DNA of 56,250 nucleotides from Acidobacteriota bacterium (GTDB taxonomy: Bacteria; Acidobacteriota; Terriglobia; Versatilivoradales; Versatilivoraceae), in contig JAPPDF010000096.1 in the NCBI GenBank assembly GCA_028875575.1, positions 1 through 56,250 on the forward strand, read 5' to 3'. The notes beneath the pieces are model-generated. The model worked only from the letters and a program-made list of their open reading frames with translations. It was not told the DNA's origin and searched no databases. Of this stretch, positions 31,523 to 42,246 are shown piece after piece; the first letter of the stretch is position 1, and the number at the start of each line of letters is the position of its first letter. A program made the translations under genes and the position numbers.

Positions 31523-33229
31523 TCAATACACTCTCGGGGCCGGCAACGCCACCAGGTTTTTCTTCAACCTCTGGCCCTGGGAAAGATCGATCCGCTCCGC
31601 ATCCCTTTCCAGGCTACTCAGGTAGTCGAGGTTGCTCTCAAGTCCGTACTCGTGATCGGTAAAAGCGCACACCAGGTACTGTGCCGGGACCAGGCCCTTG
31701 AGAGTAAACTGCCCGCGCTGGTCGGTTCGAGCCCTCCTGGTGAAGCGTGAGTGGGGCCCCCTGTATTCGGAGTCGGCGGCAAAGACCAGAACGGTCGCCG
31801 CCTGCGCGACTTCCCGGCCCTCCTCTTTTTCAACGACGCCGCTGATTTGAGCTCCCTCCGAGGAAACGTGAATCTCCACCCCGTCCAGCCGGTCACCGGA
31901 TCTGACCTCTATGGGCCGGTCAGTGAGCTCCTCGGTCCGGATGCGGATGGACTCGACATAATGATTCCCCCGCGGGGGGAGCCGGACGACAAGGCGATAG
32001 GACGCCTCCTGCAGGTCCTTGATCTTGAAGGTGAAATCCTCTTCAACCCGGGAGCTTCTCCCGCCGGCATACCTCCATGCGCTGCCGATCGATTCCATAT
32101 ACAGCGAGATCCGGCGCCAATCCAAATCGGCCTCCTCCCGATCGGTCACAATCCTGCCGGTGATCTCCGCACCCGCCGCCAACACCAACGTCAAGCCCTC
32201 GATATCCTGGTCGGTCACTTCCACAACCGCGCTGGCCATCCGTAGATCCTCGTCTCTTTCCGAACGGGCAGTCAAACGGTGTCTTCCGGGAAGAAGGCCC
32301 TTGACCTTGAATTCTCCCTGCCGATCCGTGTCCACGCTGGGTTCCATCCCGGAAACGAGGAATTCGTCCGATTCCCTTCTCGATCTGATCCAGACCGAGT
32401 GAGCCGGCCTGCCCTCGGGAGTGAGCACCCGGCCGCTGATACCGTAGCTGCGGACTTCTATCAAGGTGAAGTAGAATCCCCCGACTTCTTGCCCCGCTGC
32501 TACCTCCACTTTGGCAGCCTCCCGAGGATTCAGCACTCCAGGGTAGTAGACCGGAGGAAACGACCGATCCGCTTCTTCCTCTCGATCGTCGAGAGGGCGA
32601 GGCACCGCGCTCAAGTAGTAGCTTCCCGGCCGAATGTCGAAGAGGCGGAATCGCCCCCGGTCATCGGTCTTGGCATGCCCCGCCGGAACCAGCTCGCGCT
32701 CACCGCCATAGCTCCTGTATTCGCTCAACGTCACCGAGACCTGCGAACGGGGTTCGTTGTACGGATCCACCACGGTTCCTTCCACCACGCCGCCTTGAAT
32801 CAATGGGAAGTCAATGCCATCGAGGACCTGGCCCGGCGCCAGCGAAAGAGGGAGCGATCCGCGCCGCCTTCCCGATTGGGAGGGTTTTTCCCGGCTGTAG
32901 GATCGGCTGAGGTAGCCGTTGCGACTCGCGCGCAGAATGTACTTGCCCTCCTCCAGGTTCCTGATTTCGTATTCCCCCCGGCTATCGGTGCGAACGGTCC
33001 GAGTGACGGGGTCTCCTCGCCGGCCCGTCGAATAGAGCGTCACACGCGCCCTTACCAAGGGGCGCTCCCCCTCGGCAGCGAAGACCTGTCCTCGGATCAC
33101 TCCCGATTGCCGGTCTGCGGGCTCTTTAGAGGACACCGCAGGAGTTTGAATCAGAGCCGGCTCACTGAAGGCGGCAACGCCAAGCAAGGAGCCAATGACC
33201 GCACCCCCCAAGAGGCTTCTTGTCTGCAT
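31523..33229 (-). CDS. exported carboxypeptidase-regulatory-like repeat protein
   Basis: A 568-residue secreted protein (signal peptide MQTRSLLGGAVIGSLLGVAA). Repeated prealbumin-like/carboxypeptidase-regulatory beta-sandwich units recur with the pattern IRGQVFAAEGERPL, DSRGEYEIRNLEEGKY, VEGTVVDPYNEP, DDRGRFRLFDIRPGSYYLSA, TDRQGEFKVKGLLPG and TDQRGQFTLKGLVPAQY. Such proteins are abundant in Acidobacteriota, with unknown roles in adhesion or as ligand-free scaffolds. AGGAGG precedes ATG 33229. The ankyrin-repeat gene 110 bases upstream lies on the same strand, so the two may be one operon. Confidence 0.85.
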   Translation of the reverse strand: MQTRSLLGGAVIGSLLGVAAFSEPALIQTPAVSSKEPADRQSGVIRGQVFAAEGERPLVRARVTLYSTGRRGDPVTRTVRTDSRGEYEIRNLEEGKYILRASRNGYLSRSYSREKPSQSGRRRGSLPLSLAPGQVLDGIDFPLIQGGVVEGTVVDPYNEPRSQVSVTLSEYRSYGGERELVPAGHAKTDDRGRFRLFDIRPGSYYLSAVPRPLDDREEEADRSFPPVYYPGVLNPREAAKVEVAAGQEVGGFYFTLIEVRSYGISGRVLTPEGRPAHSVWIRSRRESDEFLVSGMEPSVDTDRQGEFKVKGLLPGRHRLTARSERDEDLRMASAVVEVTDQDIEGLTLVLAAGAEITGRIVTDREEADLDWRRISLYMESIGSAWRYAGGRSSRVEEDFTFKIKDLQEASYRLVVRLPPRGNHYVESIRIRTEELTDRPIEVRSGDRLDGVEIHVSSEGAQISGVVEKEEGREVAQAATVLVFAADSEYRGPHSRFTRRARTDQRGQFTLKGLVPAQYLVCAFTDHEYGLESNLDYLSSLERDAERIDLSQGQRLKKNLVALPAPRVY

Positions 33230-33339
33230 GTCATCCTCCTGGGGGCCCGGAAGGTGAACGGCAGCCTCCAGGCACACAATCAAGCAGGGGAGCCTGGCCC
33301 GACATTTCTCCGGGGCCAGTCGGCAGCTCTGAAGGATCC

Positions 33340-34122
33340 CTACCAATCGGATGCGGCTTCCGTTTCCCAATCCCCTGTCAGACCGCAGCAATAATTGACG
33401 GTAGCGATGGTTTCGGCATCGAATCGCGCCTTGTCCTCCGGCGCCAGCAGCCCCTTCTCGACCAGGAATGTGTTGATTGTCCTCAAGCCCTCATCCCGCT
33501 TCGGACCCGCAGGCAGCCCCATTTCGAGAAAGGCCTGGAGTTTCAGGTAAAAGACTCCCCACACCCTCAGCCTTTCCCGATCGGGATGCCGGAACGTCGA
33601 TGCCTGCTCGATGGCTGAAACGGCCCCATGGTTGCCGTGCTTCAAGGCCGTCTCGTAGGCCGTCACCCCCACATCGTTTGGGAGGTTCGGGTTGCCCCCT
33701 GCCTGGAGCAAGACATTGATCAGGGCTGCAGGGGCGTCATAGGCAGCCGCATGAAGGGGCGTGTCCCCGTATACATCCGGCCGGTTGGGATCCGCCCCGG
33801 CAGACAGCAGGGCTTCCACTTGCCCCCGGTAGACCGGGACCCTGCCGGATTGCTCGATGATTGACCGCAGCGGCGTGTTCCCGAAAGCGTCCGCCGCATC
33901 GGGATCGATGCCGGAGTTGAGAACCTCCTTCAGTTGGTCGTTGCTGCCTGAAACTATCGCCAGGTTGAGGTCCTCGACCGTCGCCATGGGTCTCGGTTGG
34001 CTGCCTTCCGAGCCCTGCCAGGACAAAATGTGGGACACGCCGAAGATCCAGCCCGTCAAACCGAAGGCAGCGAGCACAAGGTGAAACACCGGCGTCATCC
34101 ATTTGCTTCCCAAGATATCCAT
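33340..34122 (-). CDS. membrane-anchored ankyrin-repeat protein
   Basis: A 260-residue protein with an N-terminal membrane helix (about 10-33), then ankyrin repeats at about 45-165: LNLAIVSGSNDQLKEVLNSG, AADAFGNTPLRSIIE, VEALLSAGADPNRPDVYGDT, PLHAAAYDAPAALINVLLQAG, ANPNLPNDVGVTAYETALKHG-like unit. The C-terminal roughly 90 residues are helical with no recognised fold. Ankyrin repeats mediate protein binding; the partner is unknown. AGGAGG precedes the ATG. The promoter region carries the motif shared with the ECF unit. Confidence 0.85.
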   Translation of the reverse strand: MDILGSKWMTPVFHLVLAAFGLTGWIFGVSHILSWQGSEGSQPRPMATVEDLNLAIVSGSNDQLKEVLNSGIDPDAADAFGNTPLRSIIEQSGRVPVYRGQVEALLSAGADPNRPDVYGDTPLHAAAYDAPAALINVLLQAGGNPNLPNDVGVTAYETALKHGNHGAVSAIEQASTFRHPDRERLRVWGVFYLKLQAFLEMGLPAGPKRDEGLRTINTFLVEKGLLAPEDKARFDAETIATVNYCCGLTGDWETEAASDW

Positions 34123-34170
34123 GGCGTCCTCCTCGGCTGGTGGTTGGGATTGGACAGGAATTTTCCCTTA

Positions 34171-34213
34171 CCCCTATAAACAGTCGAAATGGCGGTCGAT
34201 TACAATTTTTTTT
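34171..34213 (-). promoter_or_regulatory. putative ECF-type promoter motif, copy 2
   Basis: On the reverse strand: A-run, TTGTAATCGACCGCC, then 21 bases after TTGTAA the TATAGGG. It matches 27331-27372 without gaps, with identity concentrated at both ends. It lies about 50 bases upstream of the ankyrin-repeat gene start, a normal promoter distance. Confidence 0.5.
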
Positions 34214-34511
34214 GCAGAGGGGACGTTCAGGACTGGCGGAAGGCTCTGGGCGATGCAGACGATAGTCTTGGGCGGCTTGCCGTTCCCAATGCAGCCAACC
34301 CGTATAGCGGGACCTGGTACCTGCTCGCGATAGGTCGGAAGGATCCGTTTTTTCACTCTCATAGGATCCGCACGCCAGGACAGGGGGCTGACTGACCTGC
34401 GGGGCGCGCTCGGAGTTCGTCAAAAGCCTGACCGATTTACCGGGAGTCCGGGTATACTCCGGGGCGGAAGGCAGCAATCTGCCACCGGTCGTCTGATCGA
34501 AAGGAATTTCC
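34214..34511. other. intergenic region with MITE-like fragment
   Basis: No gene is supported. TTTCACTCTCATAGGATCCG and the following CACGCCAGG (34351-34379) resemble the right flank of the MITE-like copies (TTTCACTCTCGTATGATCCG, CCCGGCAGG at 12563). GAAAGGAATTT just before 34512 is the ribosome binding site of the SDR gene. Confidence 0.4.
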
Positions 34512-35312
34512 ATGCGCATAGCGGATCGGGTCGCCGTCGTCACCGGCGGCGGCGGGGCTGTGGGAAGCGGCATCTCCCGCTGCCTGGCGCGGGAGGGCGC
34601 CCACATCGTGGTCGCCGACATTGCCCTGGAGGCTGCGGAGACGCGGGCCGAAGAGATCCGAAAGTTGGGGCGGCGGTCCTTCGCGGTTCAGGCCGACATC
34701 ACCTTGGAAAAGGACTGCCAGGAACTGGTGGAGTCATCCCTGAAGGAGTTCGGGTGCATTGACATCCTGGTCAACAACGCCGGCCACTTCGGCGAGCGCC
34801 TGGGGTTGCCCTTCACCAATCAGACCGAGGAGGAGTGGGACGACAACTACACCATCAACGTCAAGGGACCCTTTTTCCTCTGCAAGGCGGTGGCTCCCCA
34901 CATGATGGAGCGCCGTTCCGGCAAGATCATCAACATTTCCTCGATCGCCGCCAAGCGCGATCCCCAGATCGTGCCGGCCTATGCAGCCGGCAAGAACGCC
35001 CTGCTCACCCTGACCCGCATCGTGGCCAAGGACCTGGCACCCTATAACGTCAACGTCAACGCCATCTGCCCGGGAATGGTCTGGGGACACTTCTGGAAGC
35101 GCCTGGCGCCCCTGGTAGCCGCGGGAGAGCCCTCCTTTGCCGGGATGGAGCCCCGCGAGCTGTTTGAAGCCTGGTTCCACAAGAGTACGCCCCTGCAGCG
35201 CGAGCAGACACCCGAGGACATCGGCAACCTGGCCGCTTTCCTGGCCTCGGAGGAAGCCCGCAATATCACCGGCCAAACCATACACGTGGACGGTGGGGCA
35301 GCCATGAACTGA
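34512..35312 (+). CDS. short-chain dehydrogenase/reductase (SDR)
   Basis: A 266-residue classical SDR using NAD(P)H. The coenzyme motif TGGGGAVGSGI lies at residues 11-21, the NNAG motif near 93-96, the catalytic serine in INISSIAAK, and Y-x3-K in PAYAAGKN. The C-terminal GQTIHVDGGAAMN is typical. The residue after the glycine motif is acidic (VVADIAL), which favours NAD over NADP. GGAA precedes the ATG. The substrate is unknown. Confidence 0.93.
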   Translation: MRIADRVAVVTGGGGAVGSGISRCLAREGAHIVVADIALEAAETRAEEIRKLGRRSFAVQADITLEKDCQELVESSLKEFGCIDILVNNAGHFGERLGLPFTNQTEEEWDDNYTINVKGPFFLCKAVAPHMMERRSGKIINISSIAAKRDPQIVPAYAAGKNALLTLTRIVAKDLAPYNVNVNAICPGMVWGHFWKRLAPLVAAGEPSFAGMEPRELFEAWFHKSTPLQREQTPEDIGNLAAFLASEEARNITGQTIHVDGGAAMN

Positions 35313-35322
35313 GCCGCAGGGG

Positions 35323-36087
35323 TCAGGATTCCTTCCTCAGTGCGGCGAAGAAGTCTGTTTCGAACAGCTTCTCGGCCTGTTTGAACCGTTCCGGGCTGCC
35401 CAGGTCCGCCCACTTGGCCTCATCGTCGCGGTGGCCCCGGATCGGTTGACCCTGTCCCGCCACTTCCAGGTAGGCGTCCACCAGCGAGAAGGGTGGGGGA
35501 AGGGTGAGCCGGTCCAGCAGTGCGGGGGAGATGATCTGGATACCCATGAAGGACAGGGGCGTGAGGGGGCCATCCGGCGATCGGGCCATGCGCTCTTGCC
35601 CGGTGGCGAGGGACTGCCAGCCGCACAGGCTCTCGCCAGAGTCGAAGAGCAGACGCCGGGAGCTTTTTCGTTGATGGACCGCCAGGGTCGCCAGAGCACC
35701 GGAATCGAGGTGGGCCTGCAGCAGCCTTCCCAGGTGCAAATCGCTGAGCACGTCCACGTTGTGGACCAGGAAGGGTTTCCCGTCATCGAAGAACCAGCCG
35801 GCTCGTTGAACGCCCCCGCCGGTGTCCAGCAGTTGTTCTTCCAGGGAGACTGCCAGGGTGAGCCCGTCCGGGCGGTGACGCCGGCGGTAATCGGTCAGAA
35901 ATTCAGAAACCTGGTCCGCCAGATGGTGGGTGTTGACGATGATTTCCCTGAAGCCCTGTTGAGCCAATCGAGAGATGACCCCGGCCAACAGGGGGATCCC
36001 CTGAATTTCCACCAGCGCCTTGGGCCTTTGCCGGCCCAACCGGCCCAGGCGCGTTCCCCGTCCGGCTGCCAGGATCATGGCTTTCAT
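35323..36087 (-). CDS. MurU-like sugar nucleotidyltransferase
   Basis: A 254-residue NTP-transferase with the pyrophosphorylase signature MILAAGRGTRLGRLG at the N-terminus, the substrate loop RPKALVEIQG, and the metal aspartate in VHNVDVLSD. The family includes MurU, which makes UDP-MurNAc from MurNAc-1-phosphate, as well as mannose/glucose-1-phosphate transferases. It starts inside the stop codon of the kinase-RapZ gene (ATGA), so the two enzymes are produced together. AmgK and MurU act in sequence in cell-wall sugar recycling, which is the basis for this call; mannose-1-phosphate use remains possible. Confidence 0.82.
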   Translation of the reverse strand: MKAMILAAGRGTRLGRLGRQRPKALVEIQGIPLLAGVISRLAQQGFREIIVNTHHLADQVSEFLTDYRRRHRPDGLTLAVSLEEQLLDTGGGVQRAGWFFDDGKPFLVHNVDVLSDLHLGRLLQAHLDSGALATLAVHQRKSSRRLLFDSGESLCGWQSLATGQERMARSPDGPLTPLSFMGIQIISPALLDRLTLPPPFSLVDAYLEVAGQGQPIRGHRDDEAKWADLGSPERFKQAEKLFETDFFAALRKES

Positions 36088-37520
36088 GGCATGGATTCCA
36101 GCTCCCGGTGTTGAAGATCGATTCGAAGATCGTTCCGGGATCGGAGGTGGGCGGCCAGGCGCTCGGCGCAGAACACGGACCGGTGGCGCCCGCCGGTGCA
36201 GCCGAAGGCGACCGTCAGGTCGGTAAAGTTTCGCCCCAGGTGGTGATTCACTGCCTGGTCCACCAGAGTCCTGGCCTGACTCAGAAAGCGCTGTACCTCC
36301 CGGTCCTCTTCCAGGAAGCGGCCGACCTCCCGATCCCTGCCGGTGAGGGGGGCGTAGGCTGCAATGCGGCCGGGGTTGGGCAGAATGCGGCAGTCGAACA
36401 CGAATCCTCCTCCGTGTCCGGTCCGGTCCCGGGGAAGGCCCTGCCTGTAGGAAAAGCTCTTGACGTGGACGGCGAGTCCCGGTTCCTGCTGCTGCCCTTT
36501 CCGGTTCAGGGAATCGGAACGGATCATGCGCTGCCACACCACCGACAGCTCCGGGAGCCGGACGGGCAGGGCGCCTTGGGCCAGGAGTCCTTCCAGGGTG
36601 CGCAAGCCATAGGGAATGCTGGCCTCAAAGTGGCTCTTGCCCTGATGGAGCCCCCGGTAGCCGTAGGCGCCGAAGGCCTGCATCAGGCGCAACAGGGCGT
36701 AGGGCCGGAAGAAGCGCAGGAAAGTTTCCGGTTGGAGGGGGGTCAGATTGCCGGCCACTCCGAGGTAGTGGTCCAGCAACCGATTCCTCAGGGACCAGGG
36801 CAGGTCCGCCTTGGCGTCCAGCAGCAGTGAGGCTACGTCATACTGCAGCGCCCCCTTTCGGCCTCCCTGGTAGTCGATGCAGTAGAGTCGTTCCTGAAAC
36901 CACATGAGGTTGCGTGACTGGAAGTCGCGGTAGAGGAAGTGGTTGGTGTCGGCTTCCATCAGGAAATCGATCAAGGTATCGAAGTCATCCTCCAGGGCCT
37001 GTTCCTCGAAGGGAATGTCAACCAGCTTCAGGAAGTGATACTTGAAATAGTTCAGGTCCCAGTGCATCGATTGCCGATCGAAGCAGGGCCTGGGATAGCA
37101 CTCCGAGTAGTCCAGATCCCGGCCGCCGACGATCTGGAATCGAGCCAGCGTCTCCAGGGACTCCCGGTAGAGTCCGATCAGGCGATCGGTGAATCCCTCC
37201 TCTCGGCCCTGGGTCGAGACCAGTGAGAAGAGAGTCACGTTACCCAGGTCCTGCTGCAGGTAGATATGGCGGTCCAGGTCGGAGGCGTAGATTTCGGGTA
37301 CCGGCAGCCCCTGGCGGCGAAAGTGGCCGGAGAGGTTCAGGAAAGCCCGGTTCTCCTTGCGGTCCGGGTTGAAGGCGCCGATGACCGTCCGCTCCCTCCC
37401 GTTGATGCGGAAGTACCGGCGGACCGATCCATCAGCCGAAACCGGGACTATCCCCTCGGCGGGTTCACCGCACCACTGCCGGTAGAGTTCCTGCAGGCGG
37501 GTTTTGACGTCGGGGGCCAT
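36084..37520 (-). CDS. AmgK-like sugar kinase fused to RapZ C-terminal domain
   Basis: A 478-residue two-domain protein. Residues 1-335 are an aminoglycoside-phosphotransferase-type kinase like AmgK (anomeric MurNAc/GlcNAc kinase), with catalytic D199 in YRDFQSRN and metal-binding D216 in IDYQGG; the usual histidine of HxD is tyrosine, as in AmgK relatives. Residues 350-475 match the C-terminal half of RapZ: SFSYRQGLP, DCRILPNP, GRDREV and GCTGGRHRSV at 440-449. In E. coli this half binds glucosamine-6-phosphate; RapZ's N-terminal ATPase is absent. The MurU-like gene follows with a four-base overlap, so a sensing domain may tune sugar recycling. Confidence 0.88.
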   Translation of the reverse strand: MAPDVKTRLQELYRQWCGEPAEGIVPVSADGSVRRYFRINGRERTVIGAFNPDRKENRAFLNLSGHFRRQGLPVPEIYASDLDRHIYLQQDLGNVTLFSLVSTQGREEGFTDRLIGLYRESLETLARFQIVGGRDLDYSECYPRPCFDRQSMHWDLNYFKYHFLKLVDIPFEEQALEDDFDTLIDFLMEADTNHFLYRDFQSRNLMWFQERLYCIDYQGGRKGALQYDVASLLLDAKADLPWSLRNRLLDHYLGVAGNLTPLQPETFLRFFRPYALLRLMQAFGAYGYRGLHQGKSHFEASIPYGLRTLEGLLAQGALPVRLPELSVVWQRMIRSDSLNRKGQQQEPGLAVHVKSFSYRQGLPRDRTGHGGGFVFDCRILPNPGRIAAYAPLTGRDREVGRFLEEDREVQRFLSQARTLVDQAVNHHLGRNFTDLTVAFGCTGGRHRSVFCAERLAAHLRSRNDLRIDLQHRELESMP

Positions 37521-37696
37521 GGGTCTAGCAGAACCGGAATGCTTCCGGATGCACCTCGAAGATCATACACCAGGGCTGCCATCCCCCATCAAATCCCTCC
37601 CCACGGGAATCTGCGATCGAGGGGTCTTCTTTGTGAGCGCCACGCCCGACACCCCTGCCGCAGGGGTGATATAATCGCTCCTCAGAGGGTTTCATC

Positions 37697-40600
37697 GTGA
37701 AAGGAACAGCCCGCTACGCGAAACGGCGTCAGAGAACCCGCGTCGCCGCGGCGTCCGCTTCCGGATTGAAAAAGGGTTGGGTCATCCTCGGGTTGATGGG
37801 CATGCGGGTTTTGTCCCTGTCGGCCCAAGACGTGCGTCCTCCCAGCTTTGAAACCGACGTCCTGCCCATCTTTCAGCAGAACTGCCTTCATTGTCACAGT
37901 GACCAGGCTCGTCAAGGGGGATTGTCCCTTGAGACCCTGGAAAGGGTTCTGGCCGGCGGAGACTCGGGTGCGGTGGTGGTGGCCCACCAGCCTCTGGAGA
38001 GCCGGCTGCTGGTGCTGATCAACTCCGGCGGCATGCCCATGGGAGCGCCACCGCTGGGGGCGGGAGCCATCGAGGTGGTTCGGAGCTGGATTGAAGCCGG
38101 AATGCCCGGGGGAAGCGCGGAGGCGCCCGTTTCTGAAGCCGCGCCCGCCGTGCGTGAGCGGGAAGTGATGGCGGCCATTCTGGGAGCCAAGTGCCTGCCT
38201 TGCCACGGGCGGCGGCGCCAGGAGGCCGGTCTGGACCTGAGGACTCGGGAAAGCCTGTTGAAAGGAGGGCAGTCCGGCCCCGCCATCGTTCCAGGCAGAC
38301 CGGAGGATAGTCTGCTGGTTCGGCGCATCCGCGCGCAGGAAATGCCACCACCCCACTTGCAGGAACAGTTCTCGGTGCGCGGCCTGACCTCGGTCGAGTT
38401 TGAGAAGGTGCAGGCCTGGATTGCCGCGGGCGCCCTGCCCGATCCCGAAGAGCCTCCCGAAGCCGACCCGCGTCGGGATACAACGGCAGGCTTAAAGGCT
38501 CGGCAATTCTGGTCCTTTCAACCGCCCCGCCGGTCGGTCGAACCCGATGTGACGGGGAGGGATCGCGTCCGAAACCCGGTGGACGCCTTTCTGCTGGCTC
38601 GGTTGGAAGCGGGGGGGCTGGGGTTTTCCCAGCCGGCTGACCGCCTGGCGTTGATGCGGCGGGCATACCTTGATCTGACGGGCCTCCCTCCTTCCCCCGA
38701 GGAGATCCGATCCTTTCTGGCCGACTCCGACCCGCGGGCGTACGAACTCCTGGTGGACCGTCTGCTGGAATCCGCCCACTACGGTGAGCGCTGGGCCCGC
38801 TACTGGCTGGACGCCGTGGGCTATGCCGATTCCGAAGGAGGGGTTTCCTCCGACGAAGTCCGCCCCCACGCCTTCCGTTACCGCGATTACGTCATACGGT
38901 CGCTGAATGCGGACAAGCCCTACGACCGGTTCCTGATCGAGCAGATCGCCGGGGATGAGCTCTTCGACTACAGGGCCGTCGAGACCTACAGTCCCGATCA
39001 GTTGGACCTGCTGGTGGCCACCGGCTTTCTGCGAATGGGGCCGGACTCGACCTACAGCACCGAGCAGAACAACCTGCCGGAACGCCTGGACGTGGTGGCC
39101 ACCCAGATTGAGATCCTGAGCTCCTCCACCATGGGGCTGACGCTGGCTTGCGCCCGCTGCCACGACCACAAGTACGATCCGCTGTCCCAACGGGACTACT
39201 ATCAACTGAGCGCCGTCTTGAGGACGGCCTACGATCCCTACGACTGGCTGTCGCCCAGCATGGGCTGCATCGGGGTGGGAGCCAACTGCAACGACACCAA
39301 CACCCGCTTGTTGCCGCTGCCTTCCGACAGCGAGCTGCGGGAAGTGGAGGAGTACAACGCTCCCTTCAAGCGCAAGATCGCGGAACTGGAACGGCAACTG
39401 GAGGAGAAAACCCGTCCCCTCCGCAAGCAGCTGCTCGAGGAAAAGATGGCGGCCCTGCCCGAGTCCCTGCGGCAGGATTTGAAGGAGGCCTCGCAGGCCA
39501 AGCCCGAGGAACGCACCCCGGTTCAGAAATATCTCCTGGGCAAGTTTGCGGAGACCCTTCAGGTTACCCGGGCCGAAGTCCTTCAGAAGTTCAAGGACTT
39601 TGCCGAGACCTCCAAGGAGATCGAGGAGCAGATCAAGGATGAGAAAAAGAAGCTGAAGGGCAAGCCCAAGATCAGGGCGCTATTCGACATGGGAGGTCGT
39701 CCCACGCCCACTCGGATTCTGGGACGGGGCGAATACACCAATCCCGGGGATCAGGTGCTGCCGGGAGTGCCGGCGGTGCTCAACGGTGAGCTGATGCCCT
39801 ACCGGGTGGAAAAGCCCGAATGGAGCACCGAAACCACCGGGAGGCGTCTGGCCCTGGCCAAATGGTTGACTCAGCCCAACCATCCCCTGACGGCCCGCGT
39901 CATGGTGAACCGCATCTGGCAGCACCACTTCGGCGTGGGGCTGGTGAGCACGCCCGGCAACTTCGGAAGCACCGGTGCGCGGCCATCTCATCCCGAGCTG
40001 CTGGATTGGCTGGCGCGCGAATTGGTGGATGGGGGTTGGAGCCTCAAGGCCCTGCACCGCCTGATCATGACGTCCACGGCCTACCGGCAGACTTCCAGCG
40101 CCGCACCTCTCTCTCTGAAGCGCGACCCCGACAATCGCCTTGTGTCCCGTTTTCCCTTGAGGCGATTGGATGCGGACGCCCTCAGGGACTCCATTCTCAA
40201 GGTCTCGGGACGGCTGGACCCGACCCGCTACGGTCCCGCCGACGAGCTGGAGATCAAGCCCGACGGAGAGGTGATCGCCAGGGAGAGTCCCGACGGATAC
40301 CGCAGAAGCATCTACGTGAGGCAGAGGCGTTCCCAGCCTCTCAGCCTGCTGGAATCCTTCGATGCCCCGCTGCTGGTGCCCAACTGCCTCAAACGGCCGC
40401 ATTCCACGGTTTCATCCCAGGCGCTGCACCTGGAGAACAGCCAGCTGGTGCGCCTCAGCGCACGGCACATGGCCGGTCGGGTGATTGATGCCGTGGGTGA
40501 GGATACTTCCAGGCAGATCGAGCGGGTCTATCTGCTGGCGCTGACTCGACCGCCCACTGCCGAGGAGTCCGCCAAGGCCGGGGAGGTTCTCCGCCAGTTG

Positions 40601-40732
40601 ACTCGAGAATGGAAGCGGCATCTGGAAGTGGAGGTCCCGGCGGAACCGGTAGCCAGCAAGGCCGAGTGGCTGGCGCTGGCATCCTTGTGTCACGCCTTTC
40701 TCAACTCCGCCGAATTTCTCTATGTGAATTGA
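37697..40732 (+). CDS. PSD1 domain-containing cytochrome c (DUF1549/DUF1553)
   Basis: A 1011-residue exported protein. After an N-terminal hydrophobic segment (about 27-43) come two c-type heme sites, C63-L-H-C66-H67 and C166-L-P-C169-H170, in planctomycete-type cytochrome domains. DUF1549 follows (about 265-480, with NPVDAFLLARLE and the WLDAVGYADSEG segment), then a coiled-coil stretch (about 555-660), and DUF1553 (about 715-990, with VMVNRIWQHHFG). The start is GTG. It is paired with a DUF1501 gene 38 bases downstream, the standard arrangement in Planctomycetota, Verrucomicrobiota and Acidobacteriota; its reaction is unknown. Confidence 0.95.
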   Translation: MKGTARYAKRRQRTRVAAASASGLKKGWVILGLMGMRVLSLSAQDVRPPSFETDVLPIFQQNCLHCHSDQARQGGLSLETLERVLAGGDSGAVVVAHQPLESRLLVLINSGGMPMGAPPLGAGAIEVVRSWIEAGMPGGSAEAPVSEAAPAVREREVMAAILGAKCLPCHGRRRQEAGLDLRTRESLLKGGQSGPAIVPGRPEDSLLVRRIRAQEMPPPHLQEQFSVRGLTSVEFEKVQAWIAAGALPDPEEPPEADPRRDTTAGLKARQFWSFQPPRRSVEPDVTGRDRVRNPVDAFLLARLEAGGLGFSQPADRLALMRRAYLDLTGLPPSPEEIRSFLADSDPRAYELLVDRLLESAHYGERWARYWLDAVGYADSEGGVSSDEVRPHAFRYRDYVIRSLNADKPYDRFLIEQIAGDELFDYRAVETYSPDQLDLLVATGFLRMGPDSTYSTEQNNLPERLDVVATQIEILSSSTMGLTLACARCHDHKYDPLSQRDYYQLSAVLRTAYDPYDWLSPSMGCIGVGANCNDTNTRLLPLPSDSELREVEEYNAPFKRKIAELERQLEEKTRPLRKQLLEEKMAALPESLRQDLKEASQAKPEERTPVQKYLLGKFAETLQVTRAEVLQKFKDFAETSKEIEEQIKDEKKKLKGKPKIRALFDMGGRPTPTRILGRGEYTNPGDQVLPGVPAVLNGELMPYRVEKPEWSTETTGRRLALAKWLTQPNHPLTARVMVNRIWQHHFGVGLVSTPGNFGSTGARPSHPELLDWLARELVDGGWSLKALHRLIMTSTAYRQTSSAAPLSLKRDPDNRLVSRFPLRRLDADALRDSILKVSGRLDPTRYGPADELEIKPDGEVIARESPDGYRRSIYVRQRRSQPLSLLESFDAPLLVPNCLKRPHSTVSSQALHLENSQLVRLSARHMAGRVIDAVGEDTSRQIERVYLLALTRPPTAEESAKAGEVLRQLTREWKRHLEVEVPAEPVASKAEWLALASLCHAFLNSAEFLYVN

Positions 40733-40770
40733 GGAGACAGGACACCAACTGCAATCGAGGAACAAGTCCG

Positions 40771-42246
40771 ATGAACTTCAGGCAAAGGCAAGCTGTCCCC
40801 CGGAGTCGCCCCGCGCCCATTGACCGGCGGACCTTCTTTTCCCAGGTTGGCGACGGCCTTCAGGGAGCCGCCCTGGCCACCTTGCTGGGGAAGGATCTGC
40901 TGGGAGCGGATTCCCTTCTGGACGCGGGTTCGCGGCAGGTCTACGATCTGAAAAGGCAGCAGCCCCATTTCGAGCCCAAGGCCACCTCGGTCATTCAGTT
41001 GTTCATGAACGGCGGGCCCAGCCAGGTGGATCTGCTGGACCCCAAGCCCGCCCTGGAGAAATTCGCCGGTCAGCCTCCCAGCCGTGACCTTGCCAGTGAA
41101 ATTCGAGCCGTGCGGGAAGCCGGTGGTCTGATGCCGTCCCCGTTCAAGTTTTCCAAGCGGGGTGAGTCGGGCATCGAGGTGTCGGAGGTGATGCCTCACC
41201 TGGCGAAGCAGGTGGACGATATCACCGTGATTCGCTCCATGTTCACGCCCCACATCGCCCACGAGTCCTCGCTGTTTGTCATGCACTCGGGGCGCATGTT
41301 TCCCGGACGGCCTTCGCTGGGCGCCTGGGTGGTCTACGGCCTGGGCACCGAGAACCAGAACCTGCCGGCCTACGTGGTGCTGGACGACCCCAAGGGGCTG
41401 CCCATCAACGACATCCAGAACTGGCAGGCAGGGTTTCTGCCGGCGGTCTACCAGGGGACCCGTGTGCGGTCCGAGGGTTCGCCGCTACTCAACCTGCATC
41501 CGAGGGAGGAATGGCCCAGTCCGGTGGTGAAGCTGTCCCGTTCGCTGCTCAGACACCTGGACCGAAACCACTTGAGCCGGCACCCGGACGAAGCCGAGCT
41601 GGAAGCCCGCATTGCCGGTTACGAGTTGGCGGCCCGCATGCAATTGGCCGCTTCGGATGCTCTGGATGTGTCTGGGGAATCCGAGGCCACCAGGGAGATG
41701 TACGGCCTCAACGACGAGCTGACCGCTTCCTACGGCAAACGCTGCCTGATGGCTCGAAGATTGGTGGAGCGGGGGGTCCGTCTGGTTCAAATCTACATTG
41801 AAGGCCAGATCTGGGACAACCACAACGCCCTGGTCAAGAACCTGGGTTATGCCTGCGGCAAGACCGACAAACCGGCCGCGGCCCTGTTAAAGGATCTGAA
41901 GCTGCGGGGATTGCTGGACCGCACGCTGGTGGTTTGGGGAGGAGAATTCGGCCGGCTTCCCATCGCCCAGCAGCCTGCCAGCGGCGAGGTGGGCCGTGAT
42001 CACGGCCCCTCGGGATTCAGCGTCTGGCTGGCCGGTGGCGGAATCAAGGAGGGTACCGTCTACGGCGCCACCGACGACATCGGCTATAAGGCCGCAGTAA
42101 ACCCCGTCAGCGTGCACGACCTGCACGCCACCATCCTTCACCTGCTGGGCATGAACCACCGGGAGTTGATCTTCGAGCGCGAGGGCCGCAGCGAAAGACT
42201 GACGGACGAATTTCCCGCCCGCATCGTCCAGGATATTATTGCCTAG
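40771..42246 (+). CDS. DUF1501 domain protein
   Basis: A 491-residue protein of the DUF1501 family, related to alkaline phosphatase/sulfatase folds. The N-terminus holds a twin-arginine-like signal (DRRTFFSQVGDGLQGAALAT). Family marks include FMNGGPSQVDLLDPKP, RGVRLVQIY-type segment, VVWGGEFGR and GRDHGP. The frame is open further upstream inside the cytochrome gene, but ATG 40771 precedes the signal. It forms an operon with the PSD1 cytochrome and is probably exported folded, to work with it in the periplasm. Function unproven. Confidence 0.93.
   Translation: MNFRQRQAVPRSRPAPIDRRTFFSQVGDGLQGAALATLLGKDLLGADSLLDAGSRQVYDLKRQQPHFEPKATSVIQLFMNGGPSQVDLLDPKPALEKFAGQPPSRDLASEIRAVREAGGLMPSPFKFSKRGESGIEVSEVMPHLAKQVDDITVIRSMFTPHIAHESSLFVMHSGRMFPGRPSLGAWVVYGLGTENQNLPAYVVLDDPKGLPINDIQNWQAGFLPAVYQGTRVRSEGSPLLNLHPREEWPSPVVKLSRSLLRHLDRNHLSRHPDEAELEARIAGYELAARMQLAASDALDVSGESEATREMYGLNDELTASYGKRCLMARRLVERGVRLVQIYIEGQIWDNHNALVKNLGYACGKTDKPAAALLKDLKLRGLLDRTLVVWGGEFGRLPIAQQPASGEVGRDHGPSGFSVWLAGGGIKEGTVYGATDDIGYKAAVNPVSVHDLHATILHLLGMNHRELIFEREGRSERLTDEFPARIVQDIIA

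Follow-up and report, generated by a model that had tools for sequence, protein, structure and literature searches.

A conserved fusion of an AmgK-like kinase with a RapZ C-terminal domain, coupled to a MurU-like nucleotidyltransferase: a possible outlet for muramic acid phosphate

Introduction

In peptidoglycan recycling, the MurNAc-6-phosphate produced by AnmK can either be degraded through MurQ or be acted upon by a phosphatase and then by AmgK and MurU (PMC5371407). Among the known systems nearest to the locus described here is the Pseudomonas version of the latter route, AnmK–MupP–AmgK–MurU, in which the MurNAc-6P phosphatase, MupP, is a HAD-type enzyme. AmgK from Tannerella forsythia has also been expressed in E. 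coli along with its own MurU (PMC13041923).

The second point of comparison is RapZ (the E. coli RNase adapter; YvcJ-type). Its C-terminal domain (CTD) binds GlcN6P alone, with a KD of 10 nM, GlcN1P, Glc6P and GlcN being without effect (PMC7073468). Its pocket binds malonate or sulfate, with H190, H252 and R253 contributing their side chains and T248 and G249 their backbone (PMC5737377). Next to this pocket lies C247, whose replacement by serine or alanine (C247S, C247A) gives inactive protein, and the authors of that study suggested catalysis and a chemically transformed GlcN6P in RapZ (PMC9841335).

In the literature that we searched there was no paper joining RapZ, AmgK and MurU, and none relevant on RapZ and MurNAc recycling. 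The present locus joins peptidoglycan recycling and the RapZ regulator, two fields unconnected in that literature.

Results and Discussion

Organization and conservation of the locus

The features of the locus, which lies within a window of 56,250 nucleotides (the whole stretch of DNA analysed), are collected in Table 1. An earlier note on this DNA had described an AmgK-type kinase (YRDFQSRN) fused to the C-terminal domain of RapZ (GCTGGRHRSV), with a nucleotidyltransferase (NTase) starting in the stop codon of the fusion gene. This description is borne out: both motifs occur in one 478-aa ORF, the second at residues 440–449, and the ATGA overlap between the two genes is seen. The N-terminal ATPase of RapZ is absent, as the note had also stated, the fusion protein being devoid of the Walker domain PF03668 by Pfam.

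Table 1. Positions of the features of the two-gene unit within the window
Feature	Position	Strand	Size or basis
Fusion gene, AmgK-like APH kinase + RapZ_C	36084..37520	(-)	478 aa
Kinase part, residues 1–335	36516..37520	(-)	APH kinase fold; best structural match 3csv
YRDFQSRN, APH kinase catalytic loop, residues 197–204	36909..36932	(-)	Y197–N204 invariant in full-length alignment
RapZ_C domain PF22740, residues 350–475	36096..36473	(-)	Profile, fold
C441-T-G-G-R-H-R447, CX5R phosphate-binding loop	36180..36200	(-)	Equivalent to E. coli RapZ C247–R253 (PMC5737377, PMC9841335)
MurU-like sugar-1-phosphate NTase	35323..36087	(-)	254 aa
ATGA overlap, fusion-gene stop/NTase start	36084..36087	(-)	

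Because the flanking genes are divergent on one side (a DUF1549/DUF1553 gene, from 37697 onwards) and convergent on the other (a short-chain dehydrogenase, 34512–35312), the fusion gene and the NTase gene form an isolated two-gene unit. An Rfam scan of positions 33000–41000 gave zero matches, meaning that no known sRNA is found near the locus. In the divergent region (37697–42246) the DUF1549/DUF1553 cytochrome protein adjoins a DUF1501 protein, and the DUF1553 gene is retained upstream of the fusion in three other loci (L003–L005).

A scan of named genomes yielded ten homologues aligning over the full length of the fusion protein, with identities of 86–96% within its own lineage and of 45–52% in Calditrichota, Ignavibacteria and Bacteroidota. 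The kinase–RapZ_C fusion is thus a real, conserved family; a fusion arisen by chance or assembly error is ruled out by the full-length conservation in these ten proteins. In Acidobacteriota the fused or adjacent pair is rare (5/197 genomes, every one in the class of the locus), while it occurs in 23 of the 198 Bacteroidota, two more of which have the kinase alone. A same-strand NTase gene adjoins the kinase gene in 30/39 loci, mostly overlapping it or lying a few bases away. At L047 and L048 the NTase gene stands 114 and 420 bases from the fusion gene, with no overlap.

Identity of the kinase and the nucleotidyltransferase

Pfam places an APH domain (PF01636) at residues 24–253 of the fusion protein (E = 3e-14), and the APH-type loop YRDFQSRN contains the catalytic D and N. 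Two AmgK models were the best NCBIfam matches of the kinase, scoring 64 bits, which is far under their cut-offs of 550 and 500. The closest solved structures to the fusion protein by sequence were E. coli RapZ and the AmgK-like 3csv. An AlphaFold model of the whole protein had a mean pLDDT of 86, and the fold matches of its kinase part, headed by 3csv, also included choline kinases.

The NTase belongs to the NTP_transferase family (PF00483) and shows an HNVD motif as well as the signature LAAGxGTRL...PKAL at its N terminus, both corresponding to invariant columns across the aligned homologues. MurU was the best NCBIfam model (106 bits, under the cut-off of 250) and the MurU structures 8hhd and 4y7t were the top PDB matches; mannose-1-phosphate guanylyltransferase and CTP:phosphocholine cytidylyltransferase also appeared among the NCBIfam and PDB matches, respectively. 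Judging from these homologies, the kinase may catalyze the anomeric phosphorylation of MurNAc/GlcNAc, and the NTase a MurU-type reaction.

The RapZ_C pocket and its phosphate loop

The RapZ_C domain was recognized by PF22740 with E = 2e-34 (119 bits vs a cut-off of 27), and the NCBIfam RapZ model matched the fusion protein over the C-terminal half of the model only. The AlphaFold model of the domain alone (mean pLDDT 84.5) matched E. coli RapZ (5o5q, 5o5o) with a Z of 17 over 120 residues, at 41% identity.

We counted residues in 37 fused, split or free-standing homologues, gathered by the pattern GCTGGxHRS; the invariance of the loop is not a product of this filter, since a hand check showed that every RapZ_C-bearing locus fetched had been captured. 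The CTGGxHRS loop was invariant in 37/37 homologues, and the positions corresponding to C247, T248, G249, H252 and R253 of E. coli RapZ were retained in all of them, as was D182. Equally constant (37/37) were a Gly at pocket position H190, a five-residue Gly-rich insertion that is missing from the six full-length RapZ proteins compared, an aromatic residue (Phe, Trp or Tyr) at the RNA-contact position R238, and a non-basic residue at K270. The domain therefore shares with RapZ the fold and the CTGGxHRS loop, but differs in being part of a protein with no Walker domain, in the Gly-rich insertion, in the change from NPH/NPN to NPG, and in the loss of R238 and K270. On these sequence features, it is a distinct subfamily of RapZ_C.

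The earlier note had proposed that the unit senses GlcN6P. Support for that part of the proposal extends no further than the RapZ_C homology, with its retained phosphate loop; the replacement of H190 by Gly and the inserted loop, both universal in the set, argue against transferring the E. coli ligand as such. A loop so strongly constrained, together with a sugar side of the pocket that is altered, would suit some other sugar phosphate, for example MurNAc-6P.

In the RapZ_C model, the CX5R loop is preceded by the end of a strand and followed by a helix, so that the order strand, C-X5-R-S loop, helix is that of Cys-based CX5R phosphatases. By our comparison, the E. coli sequence C247-T-G-G-K-H-R253-S is spaced like the CX5R(S/T) loop of those enzymes. 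The anion contacts of E. coli RapZ, through the backbone of T248 and G249 and through H252 and R253 (PMC5737377), also resemble those of a Cys-based phosphatase, although phosphatases are nowhere mentioned in the text of PMC5737377 or PMC9841335. The likeness may be convergent. The structural matches of RapZ_C were RapZ and, weakly, phosphofructokinase, and neither a tyrosine-phosphatase nor any other phosphatase fold was among the matches listed (Foldseek, VIA-align).

RapZ_C as a separate module

At three loci (L038, L050 and L052) the kinase and RapZ_C are encoded by separate neighboring genes, followed by the NTase gene. These loci fall within the fusion clade in the kinase tree, so the genes were probably split after the fusion and have stayed adjacent. 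Two unfused kinases, L051 and L053, branch outside that clade. The genome of L053 (G386) contains an unlinked, free-standing RapZ_C of 133 aa, and in that of L051 (G215) no RapZ_C, AnmK or MurQ was found. The occurrence of free-standing RapZ_C proteins accompanying the kinase suggests that RapZ_C has an activity of its own.

The genome of our locus encodes, in addition to the fusion, a separate full-length RapZ (L001, 288 aa, PF03668 + PF22740), and the other acidobacterial carriers likewise hold both proteins. Neither a full-length RapZ nor a second RapZ_C was found in the fusion-bearing Bacteroidota, Calditrichota and Ignavibacteria, and 21 fusion-less Bacteroidota had no RapZ_C whatsoever. 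Hence, as judged by full-length RapZ, the idea that the unit operates without the RNase-E/GlmY arrangement agrees with the situation of the non-acidobacterial carriers, but not with that of the present genome, which keeps a full-length RapZ.

Co-occurrence with AnmK and MurQ

AnmK was found in 136 of the 198 Bacteroidota, 128 of which also have MurQ. All eight AnmK-positive, MurQ-negative genomes possess the kinase and RapZ_C, fused or adjacent in seven cases and unlinked in one (G386), while the etherase MurQ is present in 119/119 AnmK-positive genomes that are devoid of the kinase. The association between the fused/split class and the AnmK-positive, MurQ-negative state in Bacteroidota gave a Fisher p of 6e-7, with no correction for kinship, and in the kinase tree the eight genomes occupy several distinct branches. 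Carriers of the kinase and RapZ_C in the same phylum also include nine genomes with both AnmK and MurQ, six with neither, and one with MurQ and no AnmK. The AnmK matches in Bacteroidota fall in two groups (E about 1e-77 to 1e-112 and about 1e-54 to 1e-73), the lower-scoring one consisting mostly of frames of about 355–400 residues; these are perhaps two subfamilies.

The genome of the locus and three close kin have AnmK, encoded elsewhere, and lack MurQ; in the same class, the 18 fusion-less genomes examined all have both. The coupling to AmgK–MurU-type recycling put forward in the earlier note is therefore supported, but not proven, by the NCBIfam homology, the conserved two-gene unit and this AnmK/MurQ distribution.

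With the MupP model NF009696, the best score in the genome of the locus was 29 bits vs a cut-off of 359, a threshold too strict to show absence, given that it was reached by 0/66 genomes and 0/14 controls despite the reported MupP of Caulobacter. The 29-bit protein fits phosphoglycolate phosphatase better. The same genome encodes five HAD_2 proteins, and HAD phosphatases are promiscuous.

A possible outlet for muramic acid phosphate

Our preferred reading, to which we assign a probability of roughly 0.45, is that the two genes constitute an outlet for muramic acid phosphate, with dephosphorylation by RapZ_C followed by the kinase and then by the NTase, yielding UDP-MurNAc. AnmK would convert anhydro-MurNAc to MurNAc-6-phosphate, whose further conversion would be taken over by the fusion protein because MurQ is absent. 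The RapZ_C part would remove the 6-phosphate by means of its Cys-X5-Arg loop, and the MurNAc so released would be phosphorylated at carbon 1 by the kinase part. The NTase would then form UDP-MurNAc from MurNAc-1-phosphate and UTP. Carriers that have the kinase and RapZ_C and lack AnmK would need another source of 6-phosphate.

The scheme resembles the Pseudomonas pathway in that a MurU-like NTase acts after an APH-type kinase and that, in the lineage of the locus, AnmK is present without MurQ. It differs from the Pseudomonas AmgK–MurU pathway in that the kinase bears RapZ_C, that there is no strong MupP candidate, and that the scores are far under the equivalog cut-offs.

The genome pattern and the motif suggest that RapZ_C handles MurNAc-6P and perhaps dephosphorylates it. 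More tentatively than for the outlet as a whole, we propose that the domain is an amino-sugar 6-phosphate phosphatase of the Cys-X5-Arg type that in this family replaces MupP, fused so that a single protein chain could turn MurNAc-6P into MurNAc-1P. E. coli RapZ, as a GlcN6P sensor, might then be a descendant or moonlighting form of such an enzyme. The reaction would be the same as that of MupP, to which RapZ_C is unrelated in sequence. An enzymatic RapZ_C would fill the phosphatase step of recycling outside Proteobacteria, and would offer a testable explanation of why serine is not tolerated in place of Cys247 in E. coli RapZ and of why the GlcN6P in its pocket looked chemically altered. Against a phosphatase stands the description of the E. 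coli CTD as a GlcN6P- and RNA-binding module, not an enzyme (PMC9841335, PMC7073468). The dephosphorylation could instead be done by a HAD enzyme escaping the MupP model.

That enzyme has a place in the main rival to the phosphatase, which we regard as less probable: the recycling pathway would be the same, a HAD enzyme (the HAD_2 proteins of this genome would supply candidates) would remove the 6-phosphate, and RapZ_C would be an allosteric sensor that tunes the kinase in response to GlcN6P, to MurNAc-6P or to another amino-sugar 6-phosphate akin to these. This is in essence the model of the earlier note, with a less certain ligand. Covalent fusion to a kinase is a natural route to such tuning, and both the retained pocket loop and the specific binding of GlcN6P by the E. 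coli CTD (PMC7073468) agree with it. However, each homologue has lost H190 and gained the loop, no strong MupP candidate was found in the lineage of the locus, and a domain that also exists as a separate protein, adjacent or unlinked, is less expected of a built-in sensor.

It is improbable that the pair makes another nucleotide sugar (for instance of GlcNAc, galactosamine, mannose or a heptose) or uses a choline-like substrate, as do other pairs of APH kinases and NTP-transferases. Such a role would accord with scores far under the AmgK and MurU equivalog cut-offs and with the matches to mannose-1-phosphate guanylyltransferase, CTP:phosphocholine cytidylyltransferase and choline kinases, but the AmgK and MurU models are still the best matches, and the link with AnmK and the loss of MurQ is specific to muramic acid metabolism. 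Least probable of all is that RapZ_C merely dimerizes the kinase or binds RNA as in RapZ, since, although the E. coli CTD alone does both (PMC7073468) and D182, required for CTD self-interaction, is kept throughout, the RNA-contact positions R238 and K270 are replaced in every homologue and dimerization by itself needs no invariance of the whole phosphate loop.

Origin of the fusion in Acidobacteriota

In other Acidobacteriota (L020, L021 and L023) an unfused AmgK-like kinase gene is found, with an overlapping MurU-like gene just upstream, in genomes having neither AnmK nor MurQ. In the kinase tree, which is only roughly rooted, the acidobacterial members are nested among those of Bacteroidota, Calditrichota and Ignavibacteria, which suggests horizontal transfer. 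The kinase of L012, from a genome labelled Caldisericaceae, is nearly sister to that of L007, from Calditrichia, and the label may be wrong.
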